Positions 17,235 through 35,733 of a stretch of DNA of 38,253 bases are shown here, in pieces. The stretch lies in assembly GCA_903839865.1 (NCBI GenBank), contig CAIMEE010000023.1, forward strand, positions 1-38,253, written 5' to 3'. Position 1 is the first letter of the stretch. Each line of letters starts with the position of its first letter. The stretch comes from Enhydrobacter aerosaccus (GTDB taxonomy: Bacteria > Pseudomonadota > Alphaproteobacteria > Reyranellales > Reyranellaceae). The notes below the pieces were generated by a model, which saw nothing but the letters and a program-made list of their open reading frames with translations, did no database searches and was not told where the DNA came from. Position numbers and translations under genes: made by a program.

Positions 17235-17248
17235 CGCACCCTCCTTGG

Positions 17249-17264
17249 TGGCACCGTTATTGCA
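17249..17264 (+). promoter_or_regulatory. Sigma-54-type promoter for the amino-acid ABC operon
   Basis: TGGCACCGTTATTGCA matches the sigma-54 consensus TGGCACG-N4-TTGCW at every defined base except one (G to C after TGGCAC), with the required GG-N10-GC spacing. The predicted start near 17275 gives a leader of about 32 bases to the ATG at 17307, with AAGGAAGG as ribosome-binding site. Confidence 0.65.
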
Positions 17265-17273
17265 CGCCATTAA

Positions 17274-17289
17274 AGCAAGCTTTATGCCG
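17274..17289 (-). promoter_or_regulatory. Sigma-54-type promoter for the dioxygenase gene
   Basis: On the minus strand CGGCATAAAGCTTGCT keeps GGCA and TTGCT with the exact GG-N10-GC spacing. The predicted start near 17263 gives a leader of about 29 bases containing AAGGAGG. It overlaps the palindrome TAAAGCAAGCTTTA (17271-17284) and lies face to face with the opposite-strand sigma-54 site. Confidence 0.5.
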
Positions 17290-17306
17290 ATAAAGGAAGG
17301 TCTCCC

Positions 17307-18137
17307 ATGCGTACTCGTTGGCTCTCTCTTTCCGTGGCGCTTGTGTGTTTTAGCGTCCTGCCGGCGGCCGCGCAGACCTGCAAGTCCGCCATTCCCGATT
17401 CCGACCTCGTCGCGCCGGGCAAGATCCAGATGTCCATCAACCCCACTTTGCCGCCGCAGCAGTTCATCGACGAGAAGGGTGAGCTGCAGGGTTTGAACGT
17501 CGAACTCATGAAGGAGATTGCCAAGCGTCTGTGCATTCCGCTGGAATTCATCCGCATGGACTTCCCGCCGATGGTGCCGGCACTGACGGCAGGCCGCTTC
17601 GATGGCATCGACACCGGCATGTTTTGGACGGAGGAGCGCTCGAAGATCGCCTACACCGTGCCGTACGCCCAGCAGACGATCAGCATCACCGTCGCCAAGG
17701 GCAAGCCGAAGCTCGCGTCGATGGAGGCTATCGGTGGCAAGAAGGCGGGCGTCGAGGTGAACTCCTACCAGGAGCGCTGGCTGCGCGGCGCCGACAAGGA
17801 AGCAACCGCCAAGGGCGCAAAGCCGATCGAGATCCTCACCTTCACGACCCAGACCGACGTGATCGCGGCGCTGCGGGCCGGGCAGGTCGAGGCCGCGATC
17901 CTGATCGACCAGACCGCGAAGGAGATCGAGCGGCGCGGCGTGGTCGAGGTCACCGCGACGGGCCTGGGTGGCGCGCCGACCACGATGATGTATCGGAATC
18001 GCGCCGTCGCGGAAAAAGTCGCGGCGACGTTGACCGCAATGAAGGCCGATGGCACCTACGATAAACTGTTCGACAAATTCGGGATCACCAAGGCGCCCGA
18101 GTCGGTCTTCACCATCCGCGGGCCCGGTCCGAAGTAA
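17307..18137 (+). CDS. Amino-acid-type ABC transporter substrate-binding protein
   Basis: 276 residues with a Sec signal peptide (cleavage after Ala-Ala-Ala-Gln near 23) and an SBP family 3 fold. Typical elements are Asn-Pro-Thr-Leu-Pro-Pro-Gln-Gln-Phe-Ile-Asp, Glu-Leu-Gln-Gly-Leu-Asn-Val-Glu-Leu-Met-Lys-Glu-Ile, Arg-Phe-Asp-Gly-Ile-Asp-Thr-Gly-Met and Val-Glu-Val-Asn-Ser-Tyr-Gln-Glu. The protein is periplasmic and delivers a polar amino acid or similar compound to the permease encoded 30 bases downstream. A near-consensus sigma-54 promoter precedes it, suggesting nitrogen control. Confidence 0.92.
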   Translation: MRTRWLSLSVALVCFSVLPAAAQTCKSAIPDSDLVAPGKIQMSINPTLPPQQFIDEKGELQGLNVELMKEIAKRLCIPLEFIRMDFPPMVPALTAGRFDGIDTGMFWTEERSKIAYTVPYAQQTISITVAKGKPKLASMEAIGGKKAGVEVNSYQERWLRGADKEATAKGAKPIEILTFTTQTDVIAALRAGQVEAAILIDQTAKEIERRGVVEVTATGLGGAPTTMMYRNRAVAEKVAATLTAMKADGTYDKLFDKFGITKAPESVFTIRGPGPK

Positions 18138-18167
18138 CGCCGGCGGCGCCCATATAGAAGGCGCGTC

Positions 18168-18878
18168 ATGCAAGGCTTTGCCGTCCAGAACTTCCTCGAT
18201 GCGCTGGTCAACCCGTTCCTGCTGATGGGCGCGCTGGTCACGGCAGGCCTGACCGTGGCCGGCCTGACCGGTGGCTTCGTGTTCGGCCTGCTGGTCGCCG
18301 TTCTGCGGTCGTCATCCTACCGCGTGCTCTCGCGCTTCGCGCAGGTCTACATCTGGTTCTTCCGCGGCACGCCGCTCCTGATCCAGATGGTGGCGATCTA
18401 TTCCGGCCTGCCGCAGGTCGGCATCAAGTTCGGCGTCTTCACGTCGGTGATGGTGGCGCTCATCTCCAACGAGGCGGCCTACATGGCCGAGATCATCCGC
18501 GGCGGCTTCCTCGCCATTCCGCCCGGCCAGACCGATGCCGCGAAGGCGCTGGGACTAAACCGCTGGCAGACGCTGACCAAGATCCAGTTGCCGCAGGCAG
18601 TGCGGATCATCCTGCCGGCCGTCGGCAATTCGGTGAACGGGCTGCTGAAAGCCACTTCCATCGCCTCCGTCATTTCGATGGAAGAGCTGATGCGACGCAG
18701 TGAGATGATCATGCAGCTCAAGTTCGACGTGCTCGAGGTCTTTGCCGCCGCCGCCGTCGACTATCTCATCCTGACGACCCTGTGGGACCAGGTGCAGAAG
18801 CGCCTCGAGAAGCGCTTCAATCGCGGCGAGAGGCCCAAGGTCGCAGCGGCCGTGGAACAGGCCGCCCTGCCGCGTTAG
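18168..18878 (+). CDS. Amino-acid-type ABC transporter permease (HisM/GlnP family)
   Basis: 236 residues with about five membrane segments. The region near 60-85 (Trp-Phe-Phe-Arg-Gly-Thr-Pro-Leu-Leu-Ile-Gln) and the EAA loop near 115-135 (Asp-Ala-Ala-Lys-Ala-Leu-Gly-Leu-Asn) are diagnostic of polar amino-acid permeases. It is co-transcribed with the upstream binding protein. No ATPase gene lies in this operon, so the ATPase must be supplied from elsewhere. A single permease would act as a homodimer unless a partner is encoded elsewhere. Confidence 0.93.
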   Translation: MQGFAVQNFLDALVNPFLLMGALVTAGLTVAGLTGGFVFGLLVAVLRSSSYRVLSRFAQVYIWFFRGTPLLIQMVAIYSGLPQVGIKFGVFTSVMVALISNEAAYMAEIIRGGFLAIPPGQTDAAKALGLNRWQTLTKIQLPQAVRIILPAVGNSVNGLLKATSIASVISMEELMRRSEMIMQLKFDVLEVFAAAAVDYLILTTLWDQVQKRLEKRFNRGERPKVAAAVEQAALPR

Positions 18879-18887
18879 GCTCGGGCC

Positions 18888-19280
18888 ATGAGCGCCATCA
18901 AGTTCCACATGATCGACGGACTGCCGAGGTCCGTCTCGCCGTCGAGCCACGCCACCGAAGCCGACGGCTTCGTCTACCTGACCGGCCAGTTCGGCCGCGA
19001 CCTCGACGACCCGGCCAGGCCGCTGCCTGACGGCATCCGCGCGCAGACCGAACGCACCCTGTCCAATATGCGCCGCGTGCTGGGTGCGCTCGACCTCACG
19101 ATGGGGCAGGTGTTGCGGGTGCGCGTGTTCCTGACCCACTTCAAGCGCGACTACGACGCCATGAACGACGTCTACGCCGGCTTCTTCCCGGCCGCCGCAC
19201 GTCCGGTCCGGACCTGCGTCGGCGTTACCGATCTGGTGCGCGACGCATTGATCGAAATCGACTGCGTCGCGAAGCGCTAG
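18888..19280 (+). CDS. RidA-family protein, amino-acid ABC operon
   Basis: 130 residues. The Tyr-Leu-Thr-Gly-Gln-Phe-Gly strand, the Gln-Thr-Glu-Arg-Thr-Leu-Ser-Asn helix, the catalytic Arg in Ala-Arg-Pro-Val-Arg-Thr-Cys-Val-Gly-Val and the final Leu-Ile-Glu-Ile-Asp-Cys-Val-Ala fit an active RidA-type protein. It begins 9 bases after the permease stop, so it is co-expressed with the importer. It probably handles an imine or enamine formed when the imported compound is broken down. It converges with the M81 peptidase gene, with one base between them. Confidence 0.9.
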   Translation: MSAIKFHMIDGLPRSVSPSSHATEADGFVYLTGQFGRDLDDPARPLPDGIRAQTERTLSNMRRVLGALDLTMGQVLRVRVFLTHFKRDYDAMNDVYAGFFPAAARPVRTCVGVTDLVRDALIEIDCVAKR

Positions 19281-19281
19281 C

Positions 19282-20754
19282 TCACGCGGCGTGCGGGTTC
19301 GCCACGAACGGCCACTGCGTCTTGTCGGCCTTGGTGTAGGGCAGCAGCGCCCAGTCCGGCACCAGCGCGCCAGGGGCGGCCACGTAGACGACCTCTGAGG
19401 CGATCGGCGCGTAGGCGGCGTGAAAGTGCTGCATCGATTTCACCACCACGACCTTTTTTGTCGAGGGATCGACGCCCAGCTTGGTGAAGCAGTCGAGGCT
19501 GTGGCACTGGCTGCGCTTGGTGTTGACGATCACCGTCACGTTGTCGAGTTGCAAGGCCACGGCGTCACCGATCGGGTTGGTGCCCTTGCGCGAGCCGCCG
19601 AACTTGATGAACACGTCCTTCTCGAGCTTCAGCACCTTGGCGCGCGCGTCGATCGGCGGACCGGACTGCGGCCCGAGTTTGCCGCCCAGGCGAATGTCGA
19701 ACTCGGCGCCCTCGCCGACCTCGAAGGCGAGCTTCACGACGCCCGGATCCCAGAACATGGCGATCGCGGCGTCCTGTACCTTCTTGTCCAGAAGTTCGCG
19801 CAGGATGAAGGTCGAGTCGGAAGCAGCACCGCCGCCGGCGTTGTCCGACACGTCTGCCAGCACCATGGGCTTGGGCAGATTGTGCGAGCTCGCGCGCGCT
19901 ATCGCCGTGTTCAGCTCGACATAGGGCGGCTGGGTCTGGTGGCGTAGCTCGAAGAATTCCATCGCCAGTTCCCTGGCGATCTTCTGGGCCTTGGGCCTGT
20001 CGTTGTCGGTGATGGCAATGATCTTGCTGCTCATCTCCTTGATGTCCGACCATGGAAAGCCGTGCGCGATCGAGAGCGACAGCACGCCGTCCTTGCCTTC
20101 CATCGCGGAGAGCTTGTCGACAAAGCCGCGCATCGGCTCGCGCGTGGTGTGGAACACGCCGATCATGCGGCAGTCGTAGGAGGCCATCACCGGCTTGGTG
20201 CGCCCCTCGATGGCGCCTTCCATCACGTTGAAAAGATCGTCGGCGCGGTCCGAGACGTCGACGTGCGGATATTCCTTGAACAGCACCAGCACGGTGGCGT
20301 CGCGCATCGTGCCGTCGCCGATGTTGCAGTGAAGGTCGAACTCGACGCCCACGGGAATGTCGGGACCGACGACCTTGCGCACATGGGCGAGCAGGTCGCT
20401 TTCGCAGTCGTCGTAGCCTTCGGCCACCATGGCGCCGTGGCAGGACAGGAACACCGCATCGACCGGCATGGCAGCTTTCAGGTCGGCCACGATCTCGTCG
20501 CGGAAGCCCTCGTAGACCTTCTTCACCGTCTTGCCGGCGGGCATCGCGAAGGCGCAGAGGCTTTCGACAACCTCCCAGCCCTTGGCCTCGGCGCGCTGGC
20601 GCCAGACGGCCAGCGGCGCGCCGAACATCGGCACATTCTTGCCGTAGCTTCCCTTGCGGAAGAGACAGGTGTCCTCGAACAGCTGATGGCCGGTCGGGAT
20701 GGAGGCGAAGGTGTTGGTCTCGGTGCCGAGGCACGCCGTGAATATCTTGGTCAT
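19282..20754 (-). CDS. M81-family metallopeptidase (MlrC-like)
   Basis: 490 residues. The start Ile-Phe-Thr-Ala-Cys-Leu-Gly-Thr-Glu-Thr-Asn-Thr-Phe and Leu-Ser-Cys-His-Gly-Ala-Met-Val (103-110) are family hallmarks, as are Val-Glu-Phe-Asp-Leu-His-Cys-Asn (137-144) and the Asp-Val-Ser-Asp-Asn-Ala-Gly-Gly-Gly motif. The conserved Asp/His residues are the expected zinc ligands. MlrC, the founding member, degrades linearised microcystin, but most soil-bacterial members sit near ABC importers and probably hydrolyse other amide compounds. No signal peptide is seen, so it acts in the cytoplasm on imported substrate. Confidence 0.93.
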   Translation of the reverse strand: MTKIFTACLGTETNTFASIPTGHQLFEDTCLFRKGSYGKNVPMFGAPLAVWRQRAEAKGWEVVESLCAFAMPAGKTVKKVYEGFRDEIVADLKAAMPVDAVFLSCHGAMVAEGYDDCESDLLAHVRKVVGPDIPVGVEFDLHCNIGDGTMRDATVLVLFKEYPHVDVSDRADDLFNVMEGAIEGRTKPVMASYDCRMIGVFHTTREPMRGFVDKLSAMEGKDGVLSLSIAHGFPWSDIKEMSSKIIAITDNDRPKAQKIARELAMEFFELRHQTQPPYVELNTAIARASSHNLPKPMVLADVSDNAGGGAASDSTFILRELLDKKVQDAAIAMFWDPGVVKLAFEVGEGAEFDIRLGGKLGPQSGPPIDARAKVLKLEKDVFIKFGGSRKGTNPIGDAVALQLDNVTVIVNTKRSQCHSLDCFTKLGVDPSTKKVVVVKSMQHFHAAYAPIASEVVYVAAPGALVPDWALLPYTKADKTQWPFVANPHAA

Positions 20755-20769
20755 GCCCCGACTGTAGCG

Positions 20770-22146
20770 TTATTTCAGCGTCGCGACATCGGCGATCAGG
20801 CGCGCCACCGAATCGAGGTCGTTTCGCCGCTCGAACGACATGCCCATCCGGACGACGACCAGGTCGAGCGAGGGCACGACCACGACATATTGTCCGTAGG
20901 CACCGCGCGCCATGAAGGCATCGGCCGGCATGCCGCGCCCGATGCGATAGCGCGCGCCGCCGCTGTCGCCGCGGTTGGTCCAGAAGCCCGCAGCATAGCC
21001 GTACTCGTCGCTGTGCGGCGTGTATTTCGCCGAGTAGTCGACCCAGCCTTCGGGCAGGAGGCGCTCGCCGCCGACCACGCCGTCATGCAGATAGAGCAGC
21101 CCGAAGCGGGCCCAGTCGCGCGCCGAGGCCAGAATGTGGCTGGACCCGATCGGGGTGCCGGTGGCGTCGAACTCCAGGGTGACACGGCGCATGCCGAGCT
21201 TGTCGAACAGTTCGCGATGCGCGAAGGCCAGCGTCGCTGCGGCCGTGCCGCCCGCCTGGTCGCGGATCACGCGGGAGAGCAGCAGCGTGTTGCCGTTGGT
21301 GTAGTTCCAGTCGCTGCCCGGCGCGAACTTCAGCGGGACTTTCTCCGCGAAGCCCGCCATGTCGCGCTCGACGAAGACCATCCGTGCCGAGGGATCGAAG
21401 GCGTCCGTGGCGCTGGCCGTCAGCGACTGGCCGATGTCGAGGCCGCTGTTCATGCGCAGCAGGTTATCGAGTGTGATCGCATGGCGTGGGTCGCTCGGGT
21501 CGGACCAGGCGGCGATCGGGGCGGGACCCTGCATCGAGATCCGGCCCTGGCGCACCAGGATGCCGAGCAGCGCGTTGGTCACCGATTTGGTCATCGACCA
21601 GCCGATGATTTTGCTCTCGATGCCGTAGCCCGGCGCGTAGCGTTCGGCGATGACCTTGCCGCCCTTCACGACCACGACGGCCTTGGTGCCGCGCTGCGGT
21701 GTGCCGGGTTCCTCGAACAGACGGTCGAGGGCCGCCTTCAGCGCGGGATCCGTCGGCTCGACCGGCGTTGGCCCCGCGATCTCCGGCAGCAGGCTGGGGG
21801 CTGCTTCGCCGAGGGCGATCCGTTCGGCCGGCGCCACAGGATCCTTCAGCACGATACAGCCCAGCGGGCCGCGGTAGGCGGCTCGGCTCTCCGCCATGCC
21901 GGCGAAGGTCGCCGTCACCTCGCCCTTGTCGCGGTCGACGGTGTGGCCGAGCAGGAAGTTGGCCGGCCCCATCGTGGGCGCCACCGCCTCGCGATAGAAG
22001 GTCTCGGGATCGACGCCGGTAACGAAGGTGGCGGAACAGAGCTGGTGGCTCACGAAGCCGGTGGCGACATGGGTGGCGCGGTCGATCGAGCCGCAGCCGG
22101 CGAGCAGAAAGGGCAGGGCGGCGAGCGGAAGCAGGGAACGGGGCAT
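20770..22146 (-). CDS. Serine hydrolase, class C beta-lactamase/NylB-like lipoprotein
   Basis: 458 residues with a lipoprotein signal (Leu-Leu-Ala-Gly-Cys, Cys18). An N-terminal domain (about 25-125) precedes the beta-lactamase/DD-peptidase fold. That fold carries Ser184-Met-Thr-Lys187 (SxxK nucleophile and base) and Tyr282-Thr-Asn284 (YxN). The third motif is not a clear KTG; Arg-Gly-Ala-Tyr-Gly-Gln-Tyr occupies the region, as in 6-aminohexanoate-dimer hydrolase and esterase relatives. It is probably a membrane-anchored periplasmic amidase or esterase rather than a resistance enzyme. It lies 15 bases after the M81 gene on the same strand. Confidence 0.9.
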   Translation of the reverse strand: MPRSLLPLAALPFLLAGCGSIDRATHVATGFVSHQLCSATFVTGVDPETFYREAVAPTMGPANFLLGHTVDRDKGEVTATFAGMAESRAAYRGPLGCIVLKDPVAPAERIALGEAAPSLLPEIAGPTPVEPTDPALKAALDRLFEEPGTPQRGTKAVVVVKGGKVIAERYAPGYGIESKIIGWSMTKSVTNALLGILVRQGRISMQGPAPIAAWSDPSDPRHAITLDNLLRMNSGLDIGQSLTASATDAFDPSARMVFVERDMAGFAEKVPLKFAPGSDWNYTNGNTLLLSRVIRDQAGGTAAATLAFAHRELFDKLGMRRVTLEFDATGTPIGSSHILASARDWARFGLLYLHDGVVGGERLLPEGWVDYSAKYTPHSDEYGYAAGFWTNRGDSGGARYRIGRGMPADAFMARGAYGQYVVVVPSLDLVVVRMGMSFERRNDLDSVARLIADVATLK

Positions 22147-22185
22147 GGAAGGCTCCTCGGGGACGGCGGAAATGCCGCCGCCACC

Positions 22186-23927: not shown

Positions 23928-23961
23928 GACGTCAGGCCTCCAGGGCCCAATCGTACCTCGT

Positions 23962-25592
<1,631 letters not shown>

Positions 25593-25593
<1 letters not shown>

Positions 25594-26531
25594 CAGACCT
25601 TTTTGCTCATCTTTGGATCGAGCGTGTCGCGCAGACCGTCGCCCATGATGTTGATCGCCAGCACCGTGAAAGCAAGGAAGATGCCGGGATAGAGGATGTT
25701 GTGCGGGAACACGCGGAACAGGGTGCGGCCCTCGGCCATGATGTTGCCCCAGCTCGGCGTTTCCGGCGGGATGCCGATGCCCAGGAAGCTCAGGATCGCC
25801 TCGGTCAGGATCGCGGCGGCGGCGGTGAAGGTCGCCTGCACGATCAGCGGTGCGATGGTGTTGGGCAGGATGTGGCGGAACAGCAGGATCCAGGTCGGCG
25901 TGCCGACCGAGATGGCGCCTTCGACATAGGGCTCCTCGCGCACGGTGAGCACGATCGAGCGCACCAGGCGCACAACGCGGGGCACGTCGGGAATGACGAT
26001 GGCGAAGATCACGGTGATGAGGCCGGCGCGCCAGATCGAGACCAGCGCGATGGCGAGCAAGATGCCCGGGATCGCCATCAACCCGTCCATGATGCGCATG
26101 ATGATGCTGTCAGCCCACCTCACGTATCCAGAGATCAGGCCGATCACGAGGCCCATGCCCACGGCGCAGATGGCGACCGAGACGCCCACCATCAGCGACA
26201 CGCGCGTGCCGTAGAGGACGCGGCTGTAGACGTCGCGGCCGAGGCTGTCGGTGCCCATGATGACGGTGCGCTTGGCTTGCGTGCCGTCCTCGAGCTTGTA
26301 GGTGATTTCGGTGCCGGGCTTCTTGTTGCGCGAGGCGGGGTCAATGCGCGTCGGATCGACGGTACCCAGCACCGGCGCTGCGACGGCGATAAACAGCATC
26401 ACCAGCAGGATGACGCCGCCGAAGATGACGGACGTGTTGCGGATGGCGAGCTGCCATAGGGGGCGGCGCTTGGTCGACGCCGCGGCGATCGAGGCGGAAT
26501 CGACGATGTCGTCAGGAACTATCGCGCTCAA
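25593..26531 (-). CDS. Peptide ABC transporter permease, DppC-like
   Basis: 312 residues with about six membrane segments, the N-terminal OppC-type segment (about 30-50) and a BPD_transp_1 domain from about 110. Elements include Met-Gly-Thr-Asp-Ser-Leu-Gly-Arg-Asp-Val-Tyr-Ser-Arg near 91-103 and the late Phe-Leu-Gly-Ile-Gly-Ile-Pro-Pro. The only usable start is TTG at 26531, which overlaps the dppB-like stop by four bases (TTGA), so its translation probably depends on the upstream gene. Confidence 0.94.
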
Positions 26532-27469
26532 TAGCGGATCCTCGGGTCGAACAGGGTGTAGCTGATGTCGATCAGGAGATTGACCACCACGTAGACGACG
26601 GAGAACAGCAGGATCACCGTCTGGATGGTCGGGAAGTCACGGCTCAGCACCGCCTCGACGGTAAGGCGGCCGAGGCCGGGCAGGCCGAACACGCTTTCCG
26701 TCACCACCGCGCCGCCCATCAGCAGCGCGATGCCGATGCCGATCACGGTCAGGATCGGCACCGCGGCGTTGCGCAAGGCATGGCGCATCAGCACGACCCG
26801 GTTGGAGAGGCCCTTGGCGCGGGCGGTGCGGATGTAATCCTCGTTCAGCACCTCAAGCACGGAGGCGCGGGTAATGCGGGCGACCAGCGCGATGTAGATG
26901 ACGCCCAGGGTCGTGCTGGGCAGGATCATGCGCTCGAGGAAGCCCCAGAAGTCGACGCCGATGCGGATATAGCCCTGCACCGGCAGCCAGCCGAGCTCGA
27001 TCGCGAAGACGTAGATCAGGCAGTAGCCGATCACGAAGGAGGGCACCGAGAAGCCCAGCACAGACAGGCCCATGACGAAGCGGTCGAGGATCGAGCCCTG
27101 CTTGTAGGCCGCGATCACGCCCAGCGGAATGGCGGCGCTCAGCGCCACGACCAGGGTGCAGACGGCCAACGCCAGGGTCGGCTCGACGCGCTGGGCGATC
27201 AGTTCGGCCACCGTCTTCTTGAAGAAGTAGCTCTCGCCGAAATTGCCCTGCAGGATGTCGCCCATCCAGATCGCGAACTGTTGCCAGATCGGCAGGGTGA
27301 GTCCCAGCTTCTCGCGGATCATCGCGATCTGGTCGGACGTCGCATTGTCGCCCGCAATGACTGCGGCGGGATCGCCGGGCGTCAGCCGCAGCATCAGGAA
27401 GACGAACACAGCCACCACCGCGAGGACGGGAATGATGGCGATCAGGCGTCGGGCAATGAAATCGAGCAT
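26528..27469 (-). CDS. Peptide ABC transporter permease, DppB-like
   Basis: 313 residues from the ATG at 27469, with GGAG four bases upstream. The usual DppB opening (Met-Leu-Asp-Phe-Ile-Ala-Arg-Arg-Leu), Arg-Leu-Thr-Pro-Gly-Asp-Pro and six membrane segments are present, with the EAA loop (Arg-Thr-Ala-Arg-Ala-Lys-Gly-Leu) and the terminal Leu-Phe-Asp-Pro-Arg-Ile-Arg-Tyr. With the DppC-like protein it forms the inner-membrane channel for di/oligopeptides or related compounds. A strong stem-loop separates it from the binding-protein gene. Confidence 0.95.
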   Translation of the reverse strand: MLDFIARRLIAIIPVLAVVAVFVFLMLRLTPGDPAAVIAGDNATSDQIAMIREKLGLTLPIWQQFAIWMGDILQGNFGESYFFKKTVAELIAQRVEPTLALAVCTLVVALSAAIPLGVIAAYKQGSILDRFVMGLSVLGFSVPSFVIGYCLIYVFAIELGWLPVQGYIRIGVDFWGFLERMILPSTTLGVIYIALVARITRASVLEVLNEDYIRTARAKGLSNRVVLMRHALRNAAVPILTVIGIGIALLMGGAVVTESVFGLPGLGRLTVEAVLSRDFPTIQTVILLFSVVYVVVNLLIDISYTLFDPRIRY

Positions 27470-27486
27470 GAGTCTCCAGAATAAGG

Positions 27487-27514
27487 CCGCCGTCCCGGCA
27501 ATCCGGGACGGCGG
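27487..27514 (-). terminator. Intercistronic stem-loop, perfect 12-bp stem
   Basis: CCGCCGTCCCGG-CAAT-CCGGGACGGCGG lies between the binding-protein stop and the dppB-like start. It has no U-tract. It therefore probably acts as a partial terminator or 3'-end stabiliser, giving more binding-protein than permease mRNA, as known for several importer operons. Confidence 0.65.
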
Positions 27515-27522
27515 TGCAAAGA

Positions 27523-29124
27523 TCAGGCCTTTTCGATATTCCACATCACGGGGACCGGCGCCTTCAGCCAGCCCTTGATGGCAGTGCGCGCCGCGCCCGG
27601 CCCGTACCACTGGCCGACCCAGCCGTACTGCGCCGTCTCGATGGCGCGGTTCTGCACGGCTTCGGCCAACTTCTTGGCCTTAGCAGGGTCGGTTTCCTTG
27701 GCGTAGCTGTCGCGTAGCTTTTCGATCTCCGGATCGGTCGGCCAGCCAAACCACGACTTGTCGCCCAGGGCCACCATGTAGCTGTTGGAGATCGGATTCA
27801 GGATGTCGGCCGCCACGGTGAAGGTGTGGAAGAGGTTCCAGCCGCCCTGGTTGGCCGGCTCCTTCTTGGTGCGGCGTGTGACGACGGTCTGCCAGTCCAT
27901 CGACTGCATGTCGACCTTGAAGCCACCCTTCTCGAGCTGGGATTTCGTGACGGGTGCCATATTGGTGAGCACCGGCAGGGTCGTCGACTGCATCAGCACG
28001 ATAGGCGTGCCATCGTAGCCGGCTTCTTTCAGCAGCGCCTTGGCTTTTTCGTAATTCGGCTTGATGAACAATCCATCCGGCGCTTCGAACGCATTGGGCG
28101 TGCCGGCGATGAAGGCGGCCGAGCTCACCTTGTAGTACTGGGGCTCGCCCACCGTCGCCTTGAGGTATTCCTCCTGCTCGATGCAGAGCAACGCAGCCTG
28201 GCGAATCTTCGGGTTGTTGAACGGTGGGACCACGTGATTCATGCGATATACGAACTGCTGTCCGAGCGGATTCCAGTCGACCATCTGAAGGGTTTTCTCC
28301 TTCTTCATGACCGGGATCAGATCATGCGGCGGCTGCTCGATCAGGTCGATCTCGCCTGCGATGATCGCGTTCACCTGCTGTTGGGGGTCGGCCATTTCGA
28401 TGATCTCGACCCTGTCGACCTTCACCACCTTGCCGCCGGAGAGGCCCGAAGGCGCCTCGGCACGCGGCTTGTACTTGGCGTTCTTGACGTAGACGTGCTT
28501 CTCGCCGGGCTTTGATTCGGCGTTCACGTAGATGAAGGGGCCCGAGCCCATCTGGCTGTCGATCTGCTTGAATGCATCGGTCTCTGCGACCTTCTTCGGC
28601 ATCATGAAGGGCACGTTCGACGACGGCTTGCCGAGTGATTCGAGCACCAGGCCGTACGGCTCTTTCAGCTTCATGGTGAAGGTCTTGGCGTCGACGGCCT
28701 TGAACTCCGCCACGAAGTCCATGAGCTTGAGGCCCATCGGGTCTCGCTTGCCCCAGCGCTGGATCGAGGGAATGCAGTCCTCCGACGTGACCGGCGTGCC
28801 GTCATGCCATTCGAGACCGTCGCGGAGCGTGAAGGTCCACAGCGTCTTGTCGGCCGACACTTCGTACTTGTCGACCATCTGAGGCTTCACTTCGTTGTTC
28901 GCGTCCATCGAGAACAGCGTGTCGTAGATGAAGTAGCCGTGCGTGCGCGTGACGTAGGCCGTCGTCCAGATCGGATCGAGGATCGTCATGTTGCCGTTCT
29001 GCACGAACTTCAGGACCTTGTCGGCTGCGTGGGCCTTTCTGGTCGTCGTGGCGCCGCCTGCCGCGACCACGGCGCCCGCGGTCAATGCACCGAACGTACG
29101 CCGCTTGATTCCTGTCTTCTTCAT
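27523..29124 (-). CDS. Peptide-type ABC substrate-binding protein, Tat-exported paralogue
   Basis: 533 residues from the ATG at 29124, preceded by GGAGGGG. A twin-arginine signal is present (Lys-Arg-Arg-Thr-Phe-Gly-Ala-Leu, Arg8-Arg9; cleavage near Ala-His-Ala-Ala). The SBP family 5 fold shows Leu-Lys-Phe-Val-Gln-Asn-Gly, Ile-Leu-Asp-Pro-Ile-Trp-Thr-Thr-Ala-Tyr, Trp-Thr-Phe-Thr-Leu-Arg-Asp-Gly-Leu and Gly-Ser-Gly-Pro-Phe. It is clearly paralogous to the next gene upstream, but that one has a Sec signal. It binds peptides or other nitrogenous solutes in the periplasm. Confidence 0.93.
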   Translation of the reverse strand: MKKTGIKRRTFGALTAGAVVAAGGATTTRKAHAADKVLKFVQNGNMTILDPIWTTAYVTRTHGYFIYDTLFSMDANNEVKPQMVDKYEVSADKTLWTFTLRDGLEWHDGTPVTSEDCIPSIQRWGKRDPMGLKLMDFVAEFKAVDAKTFTMKLKEPYGLVLESLGKPSSNVPFMMPKKVAETDAFKQIDSQMGSGPFIYVNAESKPGEKHVYVKNAKYKPRAEAPSGLSGGKVVKVDRVEIIEMADPQQQVNAIIAGEIDLIEQPPHDLIPVMKKEKTLQMVDWNPLGQQFVYRMNHVVPPFNNPKIRQAALLCIEQEEYLKATVGEPQYYKVSSAAFIAGTPNAFEAPDGLFIKPNYEKAKALLKEAGYDGTPIVLMQSTTLPVLTNMAPVTKSQLEKGGFKVDMQSMDWQTVVTRRTKKEPANQGGWNLFHTFTVAADILNPISNSYMVALGDKSWFGWPTDPEIEKLRDSYAKETDPAKAKKLAEAVQNRAIETAQYGWVGQWYGPGAARTAIKGWLKAPVPVMWNIEKA

Positions 29125-29192
29125 AACGCCCCTCCAGTCTTTATGTTCTTCCATCGAGGAAAGCAGGCCCCCAGCCCGCTCTCGTCGATGGA

Positions 29193-29223
29193 CGCGCGGG
29201 GCCCTTTTCAGGAGCCCCGCGCG
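29193..29223 (-). terminator. Intercistronic stem-loop between the two binding-protein genes
   Basis: A 10-bp GC-rich stem (29193-29202 with 29214-29223, CGCGCGGGGC / GCCCCGCGCG) with an 11-base loop, 9 bases after the first binding-protein stop. It has no U-tract, so mRNA stabilisation or partial termination is likelier than full termination. Confidence 0.55.
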
Positions 29224-29232
29224 CCGTCGTCG

Positions 29233-30825
29233 CTACTTCTTGGTCATGTTCCAGAACACCGGCGCCGGCGCCACCATCATGCCGTCGAGGCTCGTGCGCA
29301 GCACGGCCGGCTGGTACCACTGGCCGAGGATGACGTGGGTCGGATGATTGACCCAGTACTTCTGCAGGTCGATGGCGATCTGCTTCTGCTTGGCGGGATC
29401 GCTCTCCTTGGCGTAGCCGTCGCGCATCTTCTCGATCGTCTCGTCGCACGGCCAGCCGAACATCGCCTTGTCGCACGAGGCGTTGAAGAAGCCCGCCATC
29501 ACCGGATTGAGGATGTCGGCGGCGACCCACGAGGTCAGCATCAGGTTCCAGCCGCCCTTGTCCGGCGCGTCCTTCTTGACGCGACGCGCCACGACCGACT
29601 GCCAGTCGCTCGACTGCATGTCGACCTTGAAGCCCGCGGCCTCGAGCTGCGACTTGGCGACCGGCGCGAGGTTGGTCAGCACCTGCAGGTCGGTCGACTG
29701 CAGCAGCACGATCGGCGTGCCGTCGTAGCCAGCTTCCTTCAGCAGCTCCTTGGCCTTGGCTGCGTTCTGGTTCAGCACGTCGGCCATGCCCTCTTCGCTC
29801 GCCAGCGGCGTGCCGCAGATGAACACGGCCTTGCAGACCTTGTAGTATTTCGCATCGCCGATCGTGGCCTTGAGGAAGTCCTCCTGGCCGAACGCGACCA
29901 TCACCGCGTGGCGGATCTTGGCGTTGTCGAACGGCTTCTGGATCTGGTTGAAGCGCATGACGTACTGGTTGCCGAGCGGATTGAACTCGACCAGCTTGAC
30001 GTTCTTGTCCTTGGACAGGAGCGGCAGCAGGTCGGTGGAGGGCTGCTCGAGCATGTCGACCTCGCCGTTCTGCAGGGCCGCGACCTGCGTCTGCTGGTCG
30101 GGCATTGCGATCCACTCGACGCGATCGACCTTCACGACCTTGCCGCCGGCCAGGCCGGACGCGGGCTCGGTGCGCGGCTTGTAGGCCTTGTTCTTGGTGA
30201 ACACGACCTTCTCGCCGGGCTTCCATTCCTTGGCCTCGAACACGAACGGTCCGGAGCCGATCACGTCCTCGATCTTGATCTGGGTGTTGGGGTCGGTCTC
30301 GGCGGTGTGCTTGGGCATCATGAAGGGCACGTTCGACGACGGCTTGCCGAGCGACTGCAGCACCAGGCCGTAGGGCTCCTTCATCATCATCTTGAAGGTC
30401 TTGTCGTCGACCTTCTCGAGGCTGGCGACCGAGCCCATCATCTTCTGGCCCATCGAGTCGCGGGCCGCCCAGCGCTTGATCGAGGCGATGCAGTCGTCCG
30501 AGGTGACCGGCTTGCCGTCCGTCCAGACGAGGCCGTCACGGAGCGTAAAAGTCCAGGTGAGTTTGTCCGCCGAGACCTCGTACTTGTCGACCATCTGCGG
30601 CTTGACGTCGAACTTCTCGTCCATGGCGAAGAGCGTGTCCCACACCATGTAGCCGAAGTTTCGCTGGATGTAGGCCGTGGTCCAGATCGGGTCCAGAATC
30701 TTCACGTCCGAGTGCATCACCGCCTTGATGGTCTGCGCTTGGGCTGGCGCCGCGATGGCGCCCAGCAGGCCGCCAACGCTGGCGGCAACGGCCAATGCCG
30801 CAACCGACTTCCTGACATCGATCAT
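29233..30825 (-). CDS. Peptide-type ABC substrate-binding protein, Sec-exported paralogue
   Basis: 530 residues from the ATG at 30825, with GGGAGAGG upstream. A Sec signal peptide is present (cleavage after Ala-Gln-Ala-Gln near 31). The SBP family 5 features parallel the downstream paralogue: Val-Lys-Ile-Leu-Asp-Pro-Ile-Trp-Thr-Thr-Ala-Tyr, Trp-Thr-Phe-Thr-Leu-Arg-Asp-Gly-Leu and Pro-Ser-Ser-Asn-Val-Pro-Phe-Met-Met-Pro. Two or more Cys residues in the mature part (Cys-Lys-Ala-Val-Phe-Ile-Cys and two later ones) could form disulphides. As the first gene it is preceded by a sigma-54-type promoter and upstream direct repeats. Confidence 0.94.
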   Translation of the reverse strand: MIDVRKSVAALAVAASVGGLLGAIAAPAQAQTIKAVMHSDVKILDPIWTTAYIQRNFGYMVWDTLFAMDEKFDVKPQMVDKYEVSADKLTWTFTLRDGLVWTDGKPVTSDDCIASIKRWAARDSMGQKMMGSVASLEKVDDKTFKMMMKEPYGLVLQSLGKPSSNVPFMMPKHTAETDPNTQIKIEDVIGSGPFVFEAKEWKPGEKVVFTKNKAYKPRTEPASGLAGGKVVKVDRVEWIAMPDQQTQVAALQNGEVDMLEQPSTDLLPLLSKDKNVKLVEFNPLGNQYVMRFNQIQKPFDNAKIRHAVMVAFGQEDFLKATIGDAKYYKVCKAVFICGTPLASEEGMADVLNQNAAKAKELLKEAGYDGTPIVLLQSTDLQVLTNLAPVAKSQLEAAGFKVDMQSSDWQSVVARRVKKDAPDKGGWNLMLTSWVAADILNPVMAGFFNASCDKAMFGWPCDETIEKMRDGYAKESDPAKQKQIAIDLQKYWVNHPTHVILGQWYQPAVLRTSLDGMMVAPAPVFWNMTKK

Positions 30826-30856
30826 CGAGTGCCTCTCCCTTGTCCTCGTTTGTCTC

Positions 30857-30872
30857 AGCAAAATTCGAGCCG
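30857..30872 (-). promoter_or_regulatory. Sigma-54-type promoter for the peptide ABC operon
   Basis: The minus strand reads CGGCTCGAATTTTGCT. GG-N10-GC spacing is exact, TTGCT is perfect, and the -24 block differs from TGGCACG at two bases. The predicted start near 30846 leaves a 21-base leader containing the ribosome-binding site. The direct repeats at 30928-30963 then fall about 80-120 bases upstream, where activator sites for sigma-54 promoters usually lie. Confidence 0.5.
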
Positions 30873-30927
30873 TCCCCCGACCGACAGTAGCAGCCGAAGG
30901 CCCCCCTCTGACAAGCCGATTCAGGCC

Positions 30928-30963
30928 GTGCGCAACGTCGTGCGCAAGGTCGTGCGAAAGCGC
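30928..30963. repeat. Three 12-base direct repeats (GTGCGCAA-type)
   Basis: GTGCGCAACGTC, GTGCGCAAGGTC and the diverged GTGCGAAAGCGC follow one another without gaps. The first two contain the self-complementary TGCGCA, six bases apart. They lie between the lipoprotein stop and the peptide operon promoter, so a regulator-binding array is plausible. Confidence 0.5.
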
Positions 30964-30965
30964 GA

Positions 30966-31976: not shown

Positions 31977-32029
31977 GTCGCGACCAGGCCAAGCAAACAG
32001 CAGAACACCAGGATGATAAAATAGGGCAC
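31961..32029 (-). CDS. Possible 22-residue membrane peptide
   Basis: A GTG one base after the pgeF stop opens a 22-codon frame that is almost entirely hydrophobic (Pro-Tyr-Phe-Ile-Ile-Leu-Val-Phe-Cys-Cys-Leu-Leu-Gly-Leu-Val). It ends in TAG and overlaps the lipoprotein start by 16 bases. It could be a real single-TM peptide or a device that carries ribosomes onto the lipoprotein ATG. Evidence is limited to composition and position. Confidence 0.25.
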   Translation of the reverse strand: MPYFIILVFCCLLGLVATCALM

Positions 32030-32030
32030 G

Positions 32031-32798
32031 TCACTTCTCGAGCGCGATCGCCGACAGGCCCCGGCCGTAGTCGCGCACGCCGTCGAGCGTGTTGCGCCGA
32101 TAGGAGAAGAAGTCGTCGGTCGCGGTCAGCGTGTCGTGGCCGGTCGCGGTGGCCGCGACGCCGACACGCGCGATGCGGCGCACGATATAGCCCGCGAGAT
32201 CGAAGATGAAATGGCCGGCGCGCGGCGACGGCTTGAAGAAATCCTTGTTGGCCTCGTCCTGCGCCAGGAAAGGCGCGGGAAACTCGGGGCCCACTTCGTA
32301 GGAGTCGCGGCCGATGCAGGGGCCGACCACGACCTTGAGCCGCTCCCGCCTGGCGCCGAGCTTTTCCATCGCCGCGATCGTGGCTTCGGCCACGCCGCCC
32401 AGGGCGCCTTTCCAGCCGGCGTGCGCGGCGCCGATCACCCGCGCCTCGCCGTCGGCAAACAGGACCGGCGCGCAGTCTGCAGCCATCACGCCCAGCACGA
32501 CGCCCGGCCGGTCGGTCACCAGCCCGTCCGCCTTGGGCGCGCCGGGCGAGGTCCAGCGGTCGGCGGCGACGGTCATCACGTCGGTCGAATGGATCTGGTG
32601 CAAGGTCAGAAGGTCGGGCTCGCGGAGCCCGAACACCTCCGCGACGCGGCGGCGGTTCTCGCGCACGTTGTCGGGACTGTCGCCCGAGCCGTAGCCGCAG
32701 TTCAGCGACGAATAGAGTCCGGCGCTGATGCCGCCCTTGCGGGTGAAGAACCGGTGCTGCACGCCGGAGAGGTCGGCGAGCGGTCTTGCCTGAATCAT
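32031..32798 (-). CDS. pgeF: Peptidoglycan editing factor / multicopper-oxidase-like (YfiH/DUF152)
   Basis: 255 residues. Family motifs are Phe-Phe-Thr-Arg-Lys-Gly-Gly, Leu-His-Gln-Ile-His-Ser, Ala-Asp-Cys-Ala-Pro-Val-Leu-Phe, Ala-His-Ala-Gly-Trp-Lys-Gly and the Pro-Cys-Ile-Gly-Arg-Asp-Ser-Tyr-Glu-Val segment. The His/Cys residues bind zinc. In E. coli the protein removes wrong amino acids (L-Ser for L-Ala) from UDP-MurNAc precursors, and related proteins show purine nucleoside phosphorylase activity. It overlaps the upstream methyltransferase by four bases (ATGA), the conserved alphaproteobacterial arrangement. Confidence 0.95.
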   Translation of the reverse strand: MIQARPLADLSGVQHRFFTRKGGISAGLYSSLNCGYGSGDSPDNVRENRRRVAEVFGLREPDLLTLHQIHSTDVMTVAADRWTSPGAPKADGLVTDRPGVVLGVMAADCAPVLFADGEARVIGAAHAGWKGALGGVAEATIAAMEKLGARRERLKVVVGPCIGRDSYEVGPEFPAPFLAQDEANKDFFKPSPRAGHFIFDLAGYIVRRIARVGVAATATGHDTLTATDDFFSYRRNTLDGVRDYGRGLSAIALEK

Positions 32799-33895
32799 GT
32801 CACGCCCGAAATACCTGGCTCAAAGCCAACCGGCGCAGCGCTTCTATCGTCGCCCACCGCCATTACGCGGAACAAGGTGCCCATTTGGCCGGGGGCGATC
32901 AAGCGCTGCAGTGCTGCGTCGACGGCATGGCGCTGCGCCGGCAATGCACGCGCCATCAACATGTCGGCGCGCTGCCTGATTCCCAGCTGCTGCAAAAAAT
33001 CGCCCTGGCCCGTCGGTCCGAAAACGCGCGCCTTTGACGCAGCAGCCCTCACTGAAGCGGCAAGGGCCGCGAAATTGACGTGCGCGCTGAGGTCGGTCTC
33101 GCCCGGCCTGTCGAGCACGTCGGCGCCGCGATGGGCGCGCACGGCCTGCAGGGACGAGCCCGGTCCCGAGACGTCGCGGCCGTAGTCGACCAGCAGCGCC
33201 CAGCCGCCGTCGCGCATCACCCGCGTGCCGATGTCGGCGGCGAGCGCGCGGCCCTGCTCGCAGAGTTCGGCTTCGGCACCCTCGGCGGCCTCGGGCAGGA
33301 ACGCTGCGAACGGCGTCGATCCGGGCGCGAGTGCGAAAGCGAGCGATTCGCCGTCGGATGCAAGGCCCACCATGCGCTCGCTCCAGCCGCGTGCGGTCTT
33401 GTGGAACTGGCGCACCGGAAGCGCGTCGAAGAATTCGTTGGCGACCAGCAGCAACGGCCCGGCCGGCACCTGGTCGAAGCGTTCGTGCCACGACGGCTGG
33501 ACGGCGGACAGCGTCGTCGCCTGCTGGGCCATCAGCGTCTCGTTGGTCTCGACGAGATGGAGGTCGATCGCGGCATGAAAGCCCGGAACGCTGCGTGTCG
33601 CGCGCAAGGCATCGGCCATCAACGTACCGCGGCCCGGCCCCAGCTCGACGAGGCGCACCGGCCCGGGGTGTCCCATCGCCTGCCAGCGCTCGGCCAGCCA
33701 GGCGCCCACGAGCTCGCCGAACATCTGCGAGATTTCCGGCGCGGTGGTGAAGTCGCCCGCGGCGCCGAGCGGCATGGCGCGGCGATAGTAGCCCAGGGTC
33801 GGATGGCCCAGGGCCTCGGCCATGAAGTCGGCGACGGAAATCGGCCCGGAGATCGCGATGCGGCGCGCGATGCGGCGGCCGAGCTCGCTAGTCAT
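32795..33895 (-). CDS. SAM-dependent methyltransferase, MidA/NDUFAF7 family
   Basis: 366 residues. The N-terminal helix bundle has Ile-Ser-Val-Ala-Asp-Phe-Met and Gly-Asp-Phe-Thr-Thr-Ala-Pro-Glu-Ile-Ser-Gln-Met-Phe-Gly-Glu. Next comes the SAM-binding Leu-Val-Glu-Leu-Gly-Pro-Gly-Arg-Gly-Thr-Leu near 86-96, and then Ala-Asn-Glu-Phe-Phe-Asp-Ala-Leu-Pro-Val. Eukaryotic NDUFAF7 methylates an arginine of the complex I subunit NDUFS2, so the bacterial protein may act on NuoC/D or another arginine. Its position between lgt and pgeF is typical of alphaproteobacteria. Confidence 0.94.
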   Translation of the reverse strand: MTSELGRRIARRIAISGPISVADFMAEALGHPTLGYYRRAMPLGAAGDFTTAPEISQMFGELVGAWLAERWQAMGHPGPVRLVELGPGRGTLMADALRATRSVPGFHAAIDLHLVETNETLMAQQATTLSAVQPSWHERFDQVPAGPLLLVANEFFDALPVRQFHKTARGWSERMVGLASDGESLAFALAPGSTPFAAFLPEAAEGAEAELCEQGRALAADIGTRVMRDGGWALLVDYGRDVSGPGSSLQAVRAHRGADVLDRPGETDLSAHVNFAALAASVRAAASKARVFGPTGQGDFLQQLGIRQRADMLMARALPAQRHAVDAALQRLIAPGQMGTLFRVMAVGDDRSAAPVGFEPGISGVT

Positions 33896-33907
33896 GGAAG
33901 AGGGACG

Positions 33908-34720
33908 TCACGGCAGCGCAGGTCGGCGATACGCGCGGATGATCAACGCCGCGCCGAACAGCACCATCGGCAGCGACAGCACCATGCCCATGCTGAGCCA
34001 GTTCGTGCCGAGGATGAACCCCAGAAAGGAGTCAGGCTCGCGGAAGAACTCGCCGGTGATGCGCGCCATGCCGTAGCCGGCGCAGAACACGCCGGTCAGC
34101 AGGCCCGGCCGGCGGCGACCGTCGGTGTAGTGCCAGACGAGATTGACGATCGCGAACAGCACGACGCCTTCGAAGAAGGCCTGGTAGAGCTGGCTGGGAT
34201 GGCGCGGCATCGGCCCGCCGCGCGGAAAGATCATTGCCCACGGCACGTCGCTCGCGCGGCCCCACAGCTCGCCGTTGATGAAGTTGGCGATGCGTCCGAA
34301 GAACAGTCCGATTGGCGCCACGATCGCCACCATGTCCGAGAGCATGAACGGGCTGGTCCGGTTGCGCAGCGCGTAGGCGACGATCGCGGTGATCACGCCC
34401 AGCAGGCCGCCGTGGAAGGACATGCCGCCTTCCCAGATCAGGAAGATCTGCTTGGGGTCGTGCAGGAAATCGCTGGGCTTGTAGAACAGCACGTAGCCGA
34501 TGCGCCCGCCCAGGATCACGCCCAGCGCCGCCCACAGCAGGAAGTCGTCGATCTTCTCCGGCGAAAGGATCGCCGGCGGCCGCTGGCAGACGCGGCGCAT
34601 GATGCGCCAGCCGATGATCAGCCCCGCGATATAGGCGAGCGCGTACCAGCGGATGGCGAACGGCCCGAGCTGCAGCAGCACCGGATCGATCTCGGGATAG
34701 GGAATGAGGAGGGAGGTCAT
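33908..34720 (-). CDS. lgt: Prolipoprotein diacylglyceryl transferase
   Basis: 270 residues with about seven membrane segments. The catalytic His103-Gly-Gly-Leu-Leu-Gly, the Lgt signature Gly-Arg-Ile-Ala-Asn-Phe-Ile-Asn-Gly-Glu-Leu (Arg143, Asn146, Asn149, Glu151) and His-Pro-Ser-Gln-Leu-Tyr-Gln near 174-180 are all present. It transfers diacylglyceryl from phosphatidylglycerol to the lipobox cysteine, the first step of lipoprotein maturation. No Shine-Dalgarno precedes the ATG, and a TTATAA lies nine bases upstream, so the transcript may be leaderless or nearly so. Confidence 0.97.
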   Translation of the reverse strand: MTSLLIPYPEIDPVLLQLGPFAIRWYALAYIAGLIIGWRIMRRVCQRPPAILSPEKIDDFLLWAALGVILGGRIGYVLFYKPSDFLHDPKQIFLIWEGGMSFHGGLLGVITAIVAYALRNRTSPFMLSDMVAIVAPIGLFFGRIANFINGELWGRASDVPWAMIFPRGGPMPRHPSQLYQAFFEGVVLFAIVNLVWHYTDGRRRPGLLTGVFCAGYGMARITGEFFREPDSFLGFILGTNWLSMGMVLSLPMVLFGAALIIRAYRRPALP

Positions 34721-34729
34721 GTGCGACGG

Positions 34730-34735
34730 TTATAA
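34730..34735 (-). promoter_or_regulatory. Possible -10 element very close to the lgt start
   Basis: TTATAA lies nine bases before the lgt ATG with no recognisable -35. If used, transcription would begin within a few bases of the start codon. This fits the absence of a Shine-Dalgarno sequence. Confidence 0.3.
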
Positions 34736-34776
34736 CGCGCAATCGCGTTGGAAGATTGCATGCCGTCAAATTGGTC

Positions 34777-34807
34777 GCGGCGCCGTCCCTGGGGGGAACG
34801 GCGCCGC
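34777..34807. terminator. Stem-loop between the ybjN-like and lgt genes
   Basis: A perfect 10-bp stem, GCGGCGCCGT / ACGGCGCCGC, with an 11-base loop in the 161-base gap. It lies downstream of the YbjN-like gene. Neither side is followed by a good U-tract, so termination is possible but not clear. Confidence 0.4.
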
Positions 34808-34881
34808 TGGAGGACGATCCGAACAGTAGCTTTTATTGGTCTTAGAGAGGGGGCGTCGGAGGGTCCTTTTTCGTGGTCGGC

Positions 34882-35391
34882 TCAGGCTTCGCCGACAGTC
34901 TCGAGAATGGCAGCCGTCATAGCGTCGGCGGGCGACTTGCCCGCCCAGACGACGTACTGGAAGGCGGGATAGAAGCGCTCGCTTTCGGTGACGGCCACCT
35001 CGACGAGGTCGTTCAGCTGCTCGGCGCACAGGCCTTCGGTGCCCCGGAGCGGAATGGAATGCCGGAACATCGGCAGGCCTTCCTCGGTCCAGAGGTCGAA
35101 GTGGCCGAGCCACATCTTTTCGTTGATCAGGGCCAACAGGCCATGGATGTCGGAATGGCGCTCGGCCGGGATGCGGACGTCGTAGGCGCAGGTGAAGTGC
35201 AGCGCCTCGACATCGTCGCGCCAGCTGAAGAACATGCGATAGTCGCACCAGCGGCCGGCAACCTCGACAGCGATTTCACGGTCGGATGTGCGATCGAAGG
35301 GCCAATCGTTGGCCGAGACGACTTTCTCGATCATCTCGAGCGGGTTCAGATCGGGCTTCTCTCTGATCCGCTCATGTCGCGATAACGCCAT
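34882..35391 (-). CDS. YbjN-domain protein
   Basis: 169 residues from the ATG at 35391. An earlier in-frame start adds 58 residues of unlikely composition, whereas this one follows a GGGGAG element. The domain (about 18-155) shows Asp-Trp-Pro-Phe-Asp-Arg, Ile-Ala-Val-Glu-Val-Ala-Gly-Arg-Trp-Cys-Asp-Tyr, Leu-His-Phe-Thr-Cys-Ala-Tyr-Asp-Val and Ile-Asn-Glu-Lys-Met-Trp-Leu-Gly-His-Phe-Asp-Leu-Trp. This matches the alphaproteobacterial YbjN family (PF10722), with a type III secretion chaperone-like fold. In E. coli YbjN affects stress and motility, but the mechanism is unknown. Confidence 0.9.
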   Translation of the reverse strand: MALSRHERIREKPDLNPLEMIEKVVSANDWPFDRTSDREIAVEVAGRWCDYRMFFSWRDDVEALHFTCAYDVRIPAERHSDIHGLLALINEKMWLGHFDLWTEEGLPMFRHSIPLRGTEGLCAEQLNDLVEVAVTESERFYPAFQYVVWAGKSPADAMTAAILETVGEA

Positions 35392-35636
35392 CCACCCACT
35401 CCCCAGCTCTTCCGCTCTGCAGTTCCCGGCGGAACCGTTCTCGTCGCGGCGGCCGACATATCGTGGTGGGCACCCAACTACCCACAAGCTGTAGCCTGCC
35501 ACAACGTTGACTCGCTCTGCAATAACAAATGGCGCTTGAACTGGGAAAAGAGTCAGCGATTCCATGATTTTAATCCCCAGCGCTCAGATTCGAGTCGCGG
35601 AATTCCGCTGAACGAATCGCGATAGGTGCACATTTT

Positions 35637-35652
35637 TGGGGCAATTCCCCCA
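35637..35652. promoter_or_regulatory. Palindrome upstream of the nitrate-type ABC operon
   Basis: TGGGGCAATTCCCCCA is a 16-base palindrome with one mismatched pair. It is centred about 60 bases before the predicted sigma-54 start, in the 342-base gap between the YbjN-like and binding-protein genes. A dimeric regulator site is plausible. A GGTGCAC element lies just upstream (35625-35631). Apart from these and the sigma-54 promoter nothing else was recognised in this gap. Confidence 0.4.
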
Positions 35653-35678
35653 TCGCGTCGCGGATTTTACACCTCCGC

Positions 35679-35693
35679 TGGCATACGCCTTGC
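35679..35693 (+). promoter_or_regulatory. Sigma-54-type promoter for the nitrate-type ABC operon
   Basis: TGGCATACGCCTTGC has perfect TGGCA and TTGC blocks with the exact GG-N10-GC spacing. The predicted start near 35705 gives a 29-base leader with AGGGAGG before the ATG at 35734. Nitrate importers are classical nitrogen-regulated sigma-54 targets. Confidence 0.6.
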
Positions 35694-35733
35694 GTGAGTT
35701 TCGCCGACCGGCCGAAAGGCCAAGGGAGGCGTC

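Follow-up and report, generated by a model that had tools for sequence, protein, structure and literature searches.

Promoters served by sigma-54 (RpoN) carry a -24/-12 element close to TGGCAC-N5-TTGCW, in which GG and GC lie exactly 10 bases apart. In the enteric glnAp2-type promoter, this element is accompanied by an upstream dyad for NtrC, TGCACC...GGTGCA. When nitrogen is scarce, NtrB phosphorylates NtrC, and the GAFTGA loop is needed for acting on sigma-54. Pairs of divergent sigma-54 promoters within one intergenic region are known for nif genes. For Alphaproteobacteria and Pseudomonadota, the available parts of two studies place nitrate importers, amino-acid transport, P-II and amidases under sigma-54 or NtrC, and indicate that the NtrC/RpoN regulon expands differently between taxa (PMC5343134, PMC12316311). 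The present analysis concerns four sigma-54-type sites, designated S1 to S4, in a window of 38,253 nucleotides from Enhydrobacter aerosaccus. The window forms contig C23 of a draft assembly that totals 5.52 Mb in 622 contigs.

S1 (TGGCACCGTTATTGCA, 17249-17264, + strand) matches the consensus perfectly and has its predicted +1 at 17275. It is faced by S2 (CGGCATAAAGCTTGCT, 17274-17289, - strand; predicted +1 at 17263). The two others are S3 (CGGCTCGAATTTTGCT, 30857-30872, - strand; predicted +1 at 30846) and S4 (TGGCATACGCCTTGCG, 35679-35694, + strand; predicted +1 at 35705). S2, S3 and S4 have two mismatches each to the consensus, the -24 part of S3 reading CGGCTC, and all four sites have TTGC and the exact GG-N10-GC spacing. 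The predicted leaders are 32, 29, 21 and 29 nt long for S1, S2, S3 and S4, respectively. Positions, strands, spacing and leader lengths had been proposed in a sequence-only reading of the window; they were all borne out, and the observation of the four sites is confirmed as real. We consider it probable (about 0.78) that S1 to S4 are true RpoN promoters of a genome-wide nitrogen-limitation regulon, with NtrC acting at S4 and most likely at S1 to S3, and with S1 and S2 forming one two-way promoter.

Conservation of the sites and the part of chance

Orthologs were sought in 61 genomes, that of the window and 60 others taken from a larger genus group; the counts for S1 to S4 include the window itself. 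For S4, 35 matches were full-length with at least 84% identity; the best 30 of them were taken, and TGGCA[CT]-N5-TTGC was present 47 to 80 bp before the start in all 30; two further loci (L243 and L244) also carry it. In an alignment of the 30 upstream regions that was built without the motif, the columns near the start that never vary are those of TTGGCA and TTGC. Among eight genus loci (at least 73% identity), S1 was kept in all and S2 in seven, the exception being L140. The S3 core was kept in 65 of 67 upstream regions (matches of at least 68% identity). Nine of these 67 are additional copies in genomes already counted, and both regions without the core (L236 and L237) belong to them. Elsewhere in the same sequences, the S3 core pattern was found at 4 of 10,362 positions. 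A partial S3-type match at G046:C672 stands outside these counts. Lineages are fewer than loci, since the genomes G000 and G028 are of nearly the same species. The sequence-only reading had proposed a comparison of upstream regions in related genomes, and on these counts its four sites are conserved.

A site at 25671-25686 (- strand), situated within a permease gene and 78 bp before an ATPase gene, is a good sigma-54-type match and served as a control in coding DNA. Among 11 relatives, one of which is poorly aligned, GG-N10-GC was kept in 8 and TTGC in 4. The conservation of S1 to S4, set against this less well kept control, is to our mind decisive: judged by conservation, the four sites matter. 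Outside the genus, three loci (L011, L070 and L047) have a comparable site before a binding-protein gene, and in a coarse scan of all 70 loci, inside the genus and out, 9 had a + strand site agreeing at no fewer than 9 of 11 positions within 300 bases upstream of the match. Loci L145 to L161, whose products are 39 to 43% identical to the S1 binding protein, were excluded as orthologs; several of them show CGGCGTCAAA-type matches, at 8 of 11 positions.

The number of matches is by itself uninformative, since the window holds 18 matches with at most two mismatches where shuffles give 15.2 (standard deviation 3.9), and 31 of 100 shuffles reach 18. The perfect form of S1 occurs 7 times in the genome, compared with 4 for the reversed pattern, so that a single perfect match directly ahead of a gene, though unusual, proves nothing. 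Scoring with a matrix had also been proposed as a check. With a genus-derived matrix, the four sites take the first four ranks in the window, but the coding site at 25671 is fifth and close behind (16.2, 16.2 and 16.0 for ranks 3, 4 and 5), and when a site's own family is held out from the matrix the ranks become 5, 2, 11 and 5 for S1, S2, S3 and S4. These matrices include 27 pattern-selected sites from the same genome, and omit the window's own loci as well as near-identical or duplicate ones (L077, L078, L107, L108, L137, L138, L007, L008, L010, L069). Among 20 first-order Markov sequences, two had one site scoring at least 16 and none had two, while the window holds five.

RpoN, its activators and the extent of the regulon

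The genome contains one rpoN gene, with an intact RpoN box (ARRTVAKYR). The gene (G000:C475, L194) has a perfect sigma-54-type site of its own at 13545-13559, 62 bp before its start, which suggests that rpoN may be autoregulated. The sigma-54-activator domain gave five protein matches, of which two are weak; weak matches mean little, because the family also turns up in each of the 14 control genomes. The clear matches are three: NtrC (699 bits against a cut-off of 559), which adjoins dusB and an NtrB-like kinase (225, slightly below the cut-off of 240); NtrX (664 against 600; L175:1147-2556), which has lost the GAFTGA loop; and a third response regulator (contig C607), which lies beside a sensor kinase, scores below the cut-offs of the families listed and has NAFTGA instead of GAFTGA. 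As NtrC alone among the three has an intact GAFTGA, it is the likely activator of S1 to S3 as well.

An NtrC-type enhancer dyad, TGCACATTTTTGGGGCA (35627-35643, + strand), is centred at -70 from the predicted S4 start and is the best match in the window for a matrix of our own. The dyad had been sought by the enteric consensus and then by this matrix, which was made from the S4 loci and glnK and is hence circular for these two. In 24 of the 30 S4 loci, TGC-N11-GCA lies 67 to 70 bp before the site, and in three more at 40 or 52 bp (52 bp in the window and in G028); the remaining three have an imperfect dyad in that region. Of the two loci added later, L243 has the dyad at 69 bp, L244 only at 31 bp. 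In the window's genome, glnK has the same type of dyad, TGCCCGGAATTTGGGCA, 60 bp ahead of its sigma-54 site. One form of the combination, TGCC-N10-GCA with a following TGGCAY-N5-TTGC, was counted 47 times across the 61 genomes, in 37 of them, compared with 4 reversed controls by our tally. Thirty of these loci were read. A nitrate-type binding protein follows at 16, glnK at 5 (one in frame, four recognised from context) and another binding-protein-like gene at 2; at 7 no clear gene follows. Two other candidates were rejected. The second-best match of the matrix in the window, at 27955 (score 13.3), is in coding DNA and inside the range of best matches of five random sequences (7.9 to 14.4), and a GCACC...GGTGG box overlapping S1 has a spacing one off that of the enteric consensus and is not conserved. 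Involvement of NtrC at S4 is directly supported by the dyad shared with glnK, and binding of NtrC there may be inferred. The sequence-only reading had named NtrC as a possible enhancer-binding protein for all four sites; this has direct support at S4, where the dyad is conserved and common to glnK, but not at S1 to S3, where the searched flanks have no such box.

How far does the regulon extend? TGGCAY-N5-TTGC was found 29 times in the genome, compared with 6 reversed controls. Two of these sites are S1 and S4, one is that of rpoN, six are without a plausible downstream gene, and for the other 20 the downstream protein was scanned against Pfam, which returned a family for 18 and none for two. 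Among the families are P-II, ANTAR, isochorismatase, C-N hydrolase and RidA, two NMT1 and three TctC binding proteins, two luciferase-like monooxygenases and two ABC (ATP-binding cassette) ATPases. Several of the 29 sites may be chance matches. Since they exceed the reversed controls to this degree and only 2 of them are in the window, the regulon appears to be genome-wide, not local. The earlier proposal of a 'local nitrogen-scavenging regulon' therefore fails in one word, 27 of the 29 sites being outside the window. The idea of a nitrogen regulon served by RpoN is well supported, given the conservation, the single intact rpoN, the ntrC gene beside an ntrB-like gene and the like-built site before glnK. 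The nitrogen-regulon reading is, in short, partly supported: it appears right in kind and too narrow in extent, with direct support from the sequence for NtrC at S4 only.

The following mechanism may be proposed. Phosphorylated NtrC would bind the dyad at -70 of the nitrate-type importer, and its AAA+ domain would remodel the closed RpoN-polymerase complex at S4. S1, S2 and S3 would be activated likewise, most likely by NtrC, from enhancers not recognised here. S1 and S2 would make up one two-way promoter, in which a single direction could melt at a time because each predicted +1 sits on the -12 base of the other.

Alternative readings

Several points weigh against RpoN promoters of a nitrogen regulon at all four sites. 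With their own families held out, S1 and S4 rank only fifth, below a coding site, and S3 eleventh; moreover, TGGCAC was never seen at S3 among 30 loci scanned. No NtrC-type dyad was found at S1 to S3, either in the 250 to 300 bp upstream in the loci or in the matrix scan of the whole window, which gave nothing near these sites above the range of the five random sequences. Only 4 of 65 loci taken as lying outside the genus reach 9 of 11 positions or more (on the + strand, counting from match starts and not from true starts). Behind other sites of the genome are NUDIX, DUF4175 and transglutaminase-like proteins, which are not nitrogen genes. The genome G046 has retained a facing pair at TauD without the binding-protein gene to the right, a conserved block upstream of S3 (see below) could be the main promoter of the S3 gene, and the assembly is a draft of 622 contigs. 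One might suppose that the four sites are mere look-alikes that arose by chance in a GC-rich genome, loose matches being as numerous as in shuffles and one coding site scoring nearly as high. This is highly improbable, as it is already contradicted by the conservation of the four cores, which the coding control does not share to the same degree. It is also possible that all four are RpoN promoters, but that S1 to S3 obey another activator, for example the third response regulator, and a signal other than general nitrogen status. That these three sites are without the dyad found at S4 and glnK would be explained in this way, and a third regulator with the sigma-54-activator domain does exist, beside a sensor kinase. 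However, it has NAFTGA and not GAFTGA, nothing found ties it to the S1 to S3 genes, and most genes downstream of the sites fit nitrogen scavenging; we regard this arrangement as unlikely.

S3 raises a question of its own. Upstream of it, at 30884-30914 (- strand), is a conserved TTGTCA-N19-TACTGT block with a G run, possibly a sigma-70-type promoter or an operator. If transcription began from this block, S3 would sit near the +1 of its transcript, and could be a conserved operator or leader element, not a promoter. The block is highly conserved, part of it (CTTGTCASAGGGGG) being found once per genome in 9 of 11 genomes, and S3 is the weakest match once its family is held out. Nevertheless, eight regions that fail the block pattern (L212, L216, L219, L223, L224, L238, L239 and L240) retain GG-N10-GC and TTGC, with -24 forms such as TGGCTT, TGGCGT and CGGCCC; L236 and L237 have neither block nor core; and the distance from block to S3, as judged by eye, differs by a few bases among relatives. 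We find an operator or leader role for S3 improbable, and retain it as a predicted RpoN promoter. Two observations on this region may be added. In L211, L215 and L217 (and, by eye, in L209) two tandem sigma-54-type elements 15 bp apart precede the peptide-type importer. A GCGGCT...AGCCGC inverted repeat, noticed by eye in some orthologs as a possible hairpin at S3, is missing from the window and from other orthologs, and was dropped.

Gene content, proposed two-way promoters and known systems

Behind S2 lies a gene of the TauD/TfdA dioxygenase family (16341-17234, - strand; PF02668, E 4e-54), whose product need not be a nitrogen enzyme. S1 precedes an amino-acid-type importer on the + strand: a family 3 (amino-acid type) solute-binding protein (17307-18137; PF00497, with relatives in PDB), an ABC permease of amino-acid type (18168-18878; PF00528, and TIGR01726 above cut-off) and a RidA-family protein (18888-19280; PF01042). 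This importer, at 17307-19280, has a binding protein and a permease, without an ATPase among the neighbouring window genes scanned. The closest named relatives of the binding protein at 17307 come from genomes labelled Enhydrobacter aerosaccus (including ATCC 27094) and from uncultured Rhodospirillales; the type strain of Enhydrobacter aerosaccus presumably groups with Reyranella. The gene behind S3 encodes a family 5 (peptide type) solute-binding protein (29233-30825, - strand; PF00496) and heads an importer operon whose remaining genes, for a second binding protein, two permeases and a double ATPase, occupy 23962-29154 on the - strand. S4 precedes, on the + strand, a solute-binding protein of NrtA/CmpA type (35734-37101; PF13379), whose top match in PDB is the nitrate-binding NrtA 2g29 (E 9e-55), and the ABC permease of the same nitrate-type importer (37244-38089; PF00528). 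Between ybjN and this importer, at 35509-35614, six GANTC motifs (CcrM-type methylation sites) fall within about 110 bp, where 0.6 would be expected per 300 bp, and several are in columns conserved across the 30 aligned S4 loci. The claim that every nitrogen-compound importer of the window is marked by a site agrees with the Pfam scan of open reading frames, in which three importer operons were recognised, each with one such site, but the fourth gene, that of the TauD family, belongs to no importer.

The predicted +1 of S2 coincides with the -12 base of S1, at 17263, and that of S1 with the -12 base of S2, at 17275. Each core is predicted to lie inside the first transcribed bases of the other in four lineages, a spacing of 12 or 13 bp between the predicted starts being seen in the window species, G001, G011 and L009. 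In three wide-spaced relatives (G015, G044 and G017), extra bases would make the predicted transcripts overlap by 21 to 24 nt, both cores being kept. Overlapping transcripts were considered for the window too and rejected, as its predicted starts, 12 bp apart, give no overlap. Strict facing pairs were found in 7 of the 61 genomes, each beside TauD, and no reversed control pair was seen. Back-to-back pairs with gaps of 0 to 30 bp, such as those at L299 to L318 and at G000:C445:34992-35023, are more widespread, with 54 in 40 of the 61 genomes compared with one reversed control pair; nine have as little as 2 to 4 bp between the pattern cores. The partners were read at 20 of the 54 loci, some proteins being scanned against Pfam and others recognised from their first residues. 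Eleven of these pairs join glnK to a divergent gene (of the Gcw_chp family in the one scanned). In six, an NMT1-type binding protein is paired with a flavin or Rieske oxygenase (at 3 to 4 bp in five of these), and in the last three the partner of a 2OG-Fe(II) oxygenase is an amidase, a DctP binding protein or an unclear gene.

These arrangements lead us to a doubtful proposal: the genus may repeatedly pack sigma-54 promoters into tight two-way units, most commonly glnK with a divergent outer-membrane-type gene and, second, an oxygenase with a nutrient importer. Such a unit would work as a mutually exclusive switch, since it would not allow both promoters to be opened by two polymerases simultaneously. 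The TauD/binding-protein unit of the window would then be the face-to-face version, the others being back to back, some with 2 to 4 bp between cores. If this were true, a two-way unit would set the ratio of nutrient uptake to oxidative nitrogen release. In a more general way, the sites offer a conserved and testable map of nitrogen-scavenging promoters for a genus without an RpoN study in the literature searched: by title, no study on Reyranella and RpoN was found in the open-licence literature. S1 and S2 offer a natural facing pair at which competition between two enhancer-dependent polymerases could be measured. No report of facing, overlapping or back-to-back sigma-54 promoters was found in the open-licence literature, judged mostly by listing, nor in the available part of PMC4591121. 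In Salmonella, a study using chromatin immunoprecipitation with exonuclease treatment (ChIP-exo) assigned 20 RpoN sites, stated to be 4.8 per cent, to bidirectional promoters (PMC10794520).

Compared with known systems, this one is of a familiar kind but has an unusual promoter geometry. With the alphaproteobacterial NtrC/RpoN regulons, as far as the available parts of their descriptions go, it shares P-II, nitrate ABC importer, amino-acid transport and amidase genes; here, the regulon seemingly also takes in a peptide-type importer and the pair of a TauD-family dioxygenase and a family 3 binding protein, with no recognised NtrC box. Like the enteric glnAp2-type promoter, S4 combines a -24/-12 element with an upstream NtrC dyad, whereas the dyads at the S4 loci are mostly TGCC/TGCT...GGGCA/GAGCA and keep a nearly fixed distance to the site. 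As in the divergent nif pairs, two sigma-54 promoters lie between divergent genes. Unlike those pairs, S1 and S2 face each other, with predicted +1 sites 12 bp apart and each core within the first bases that the other would transcribe.

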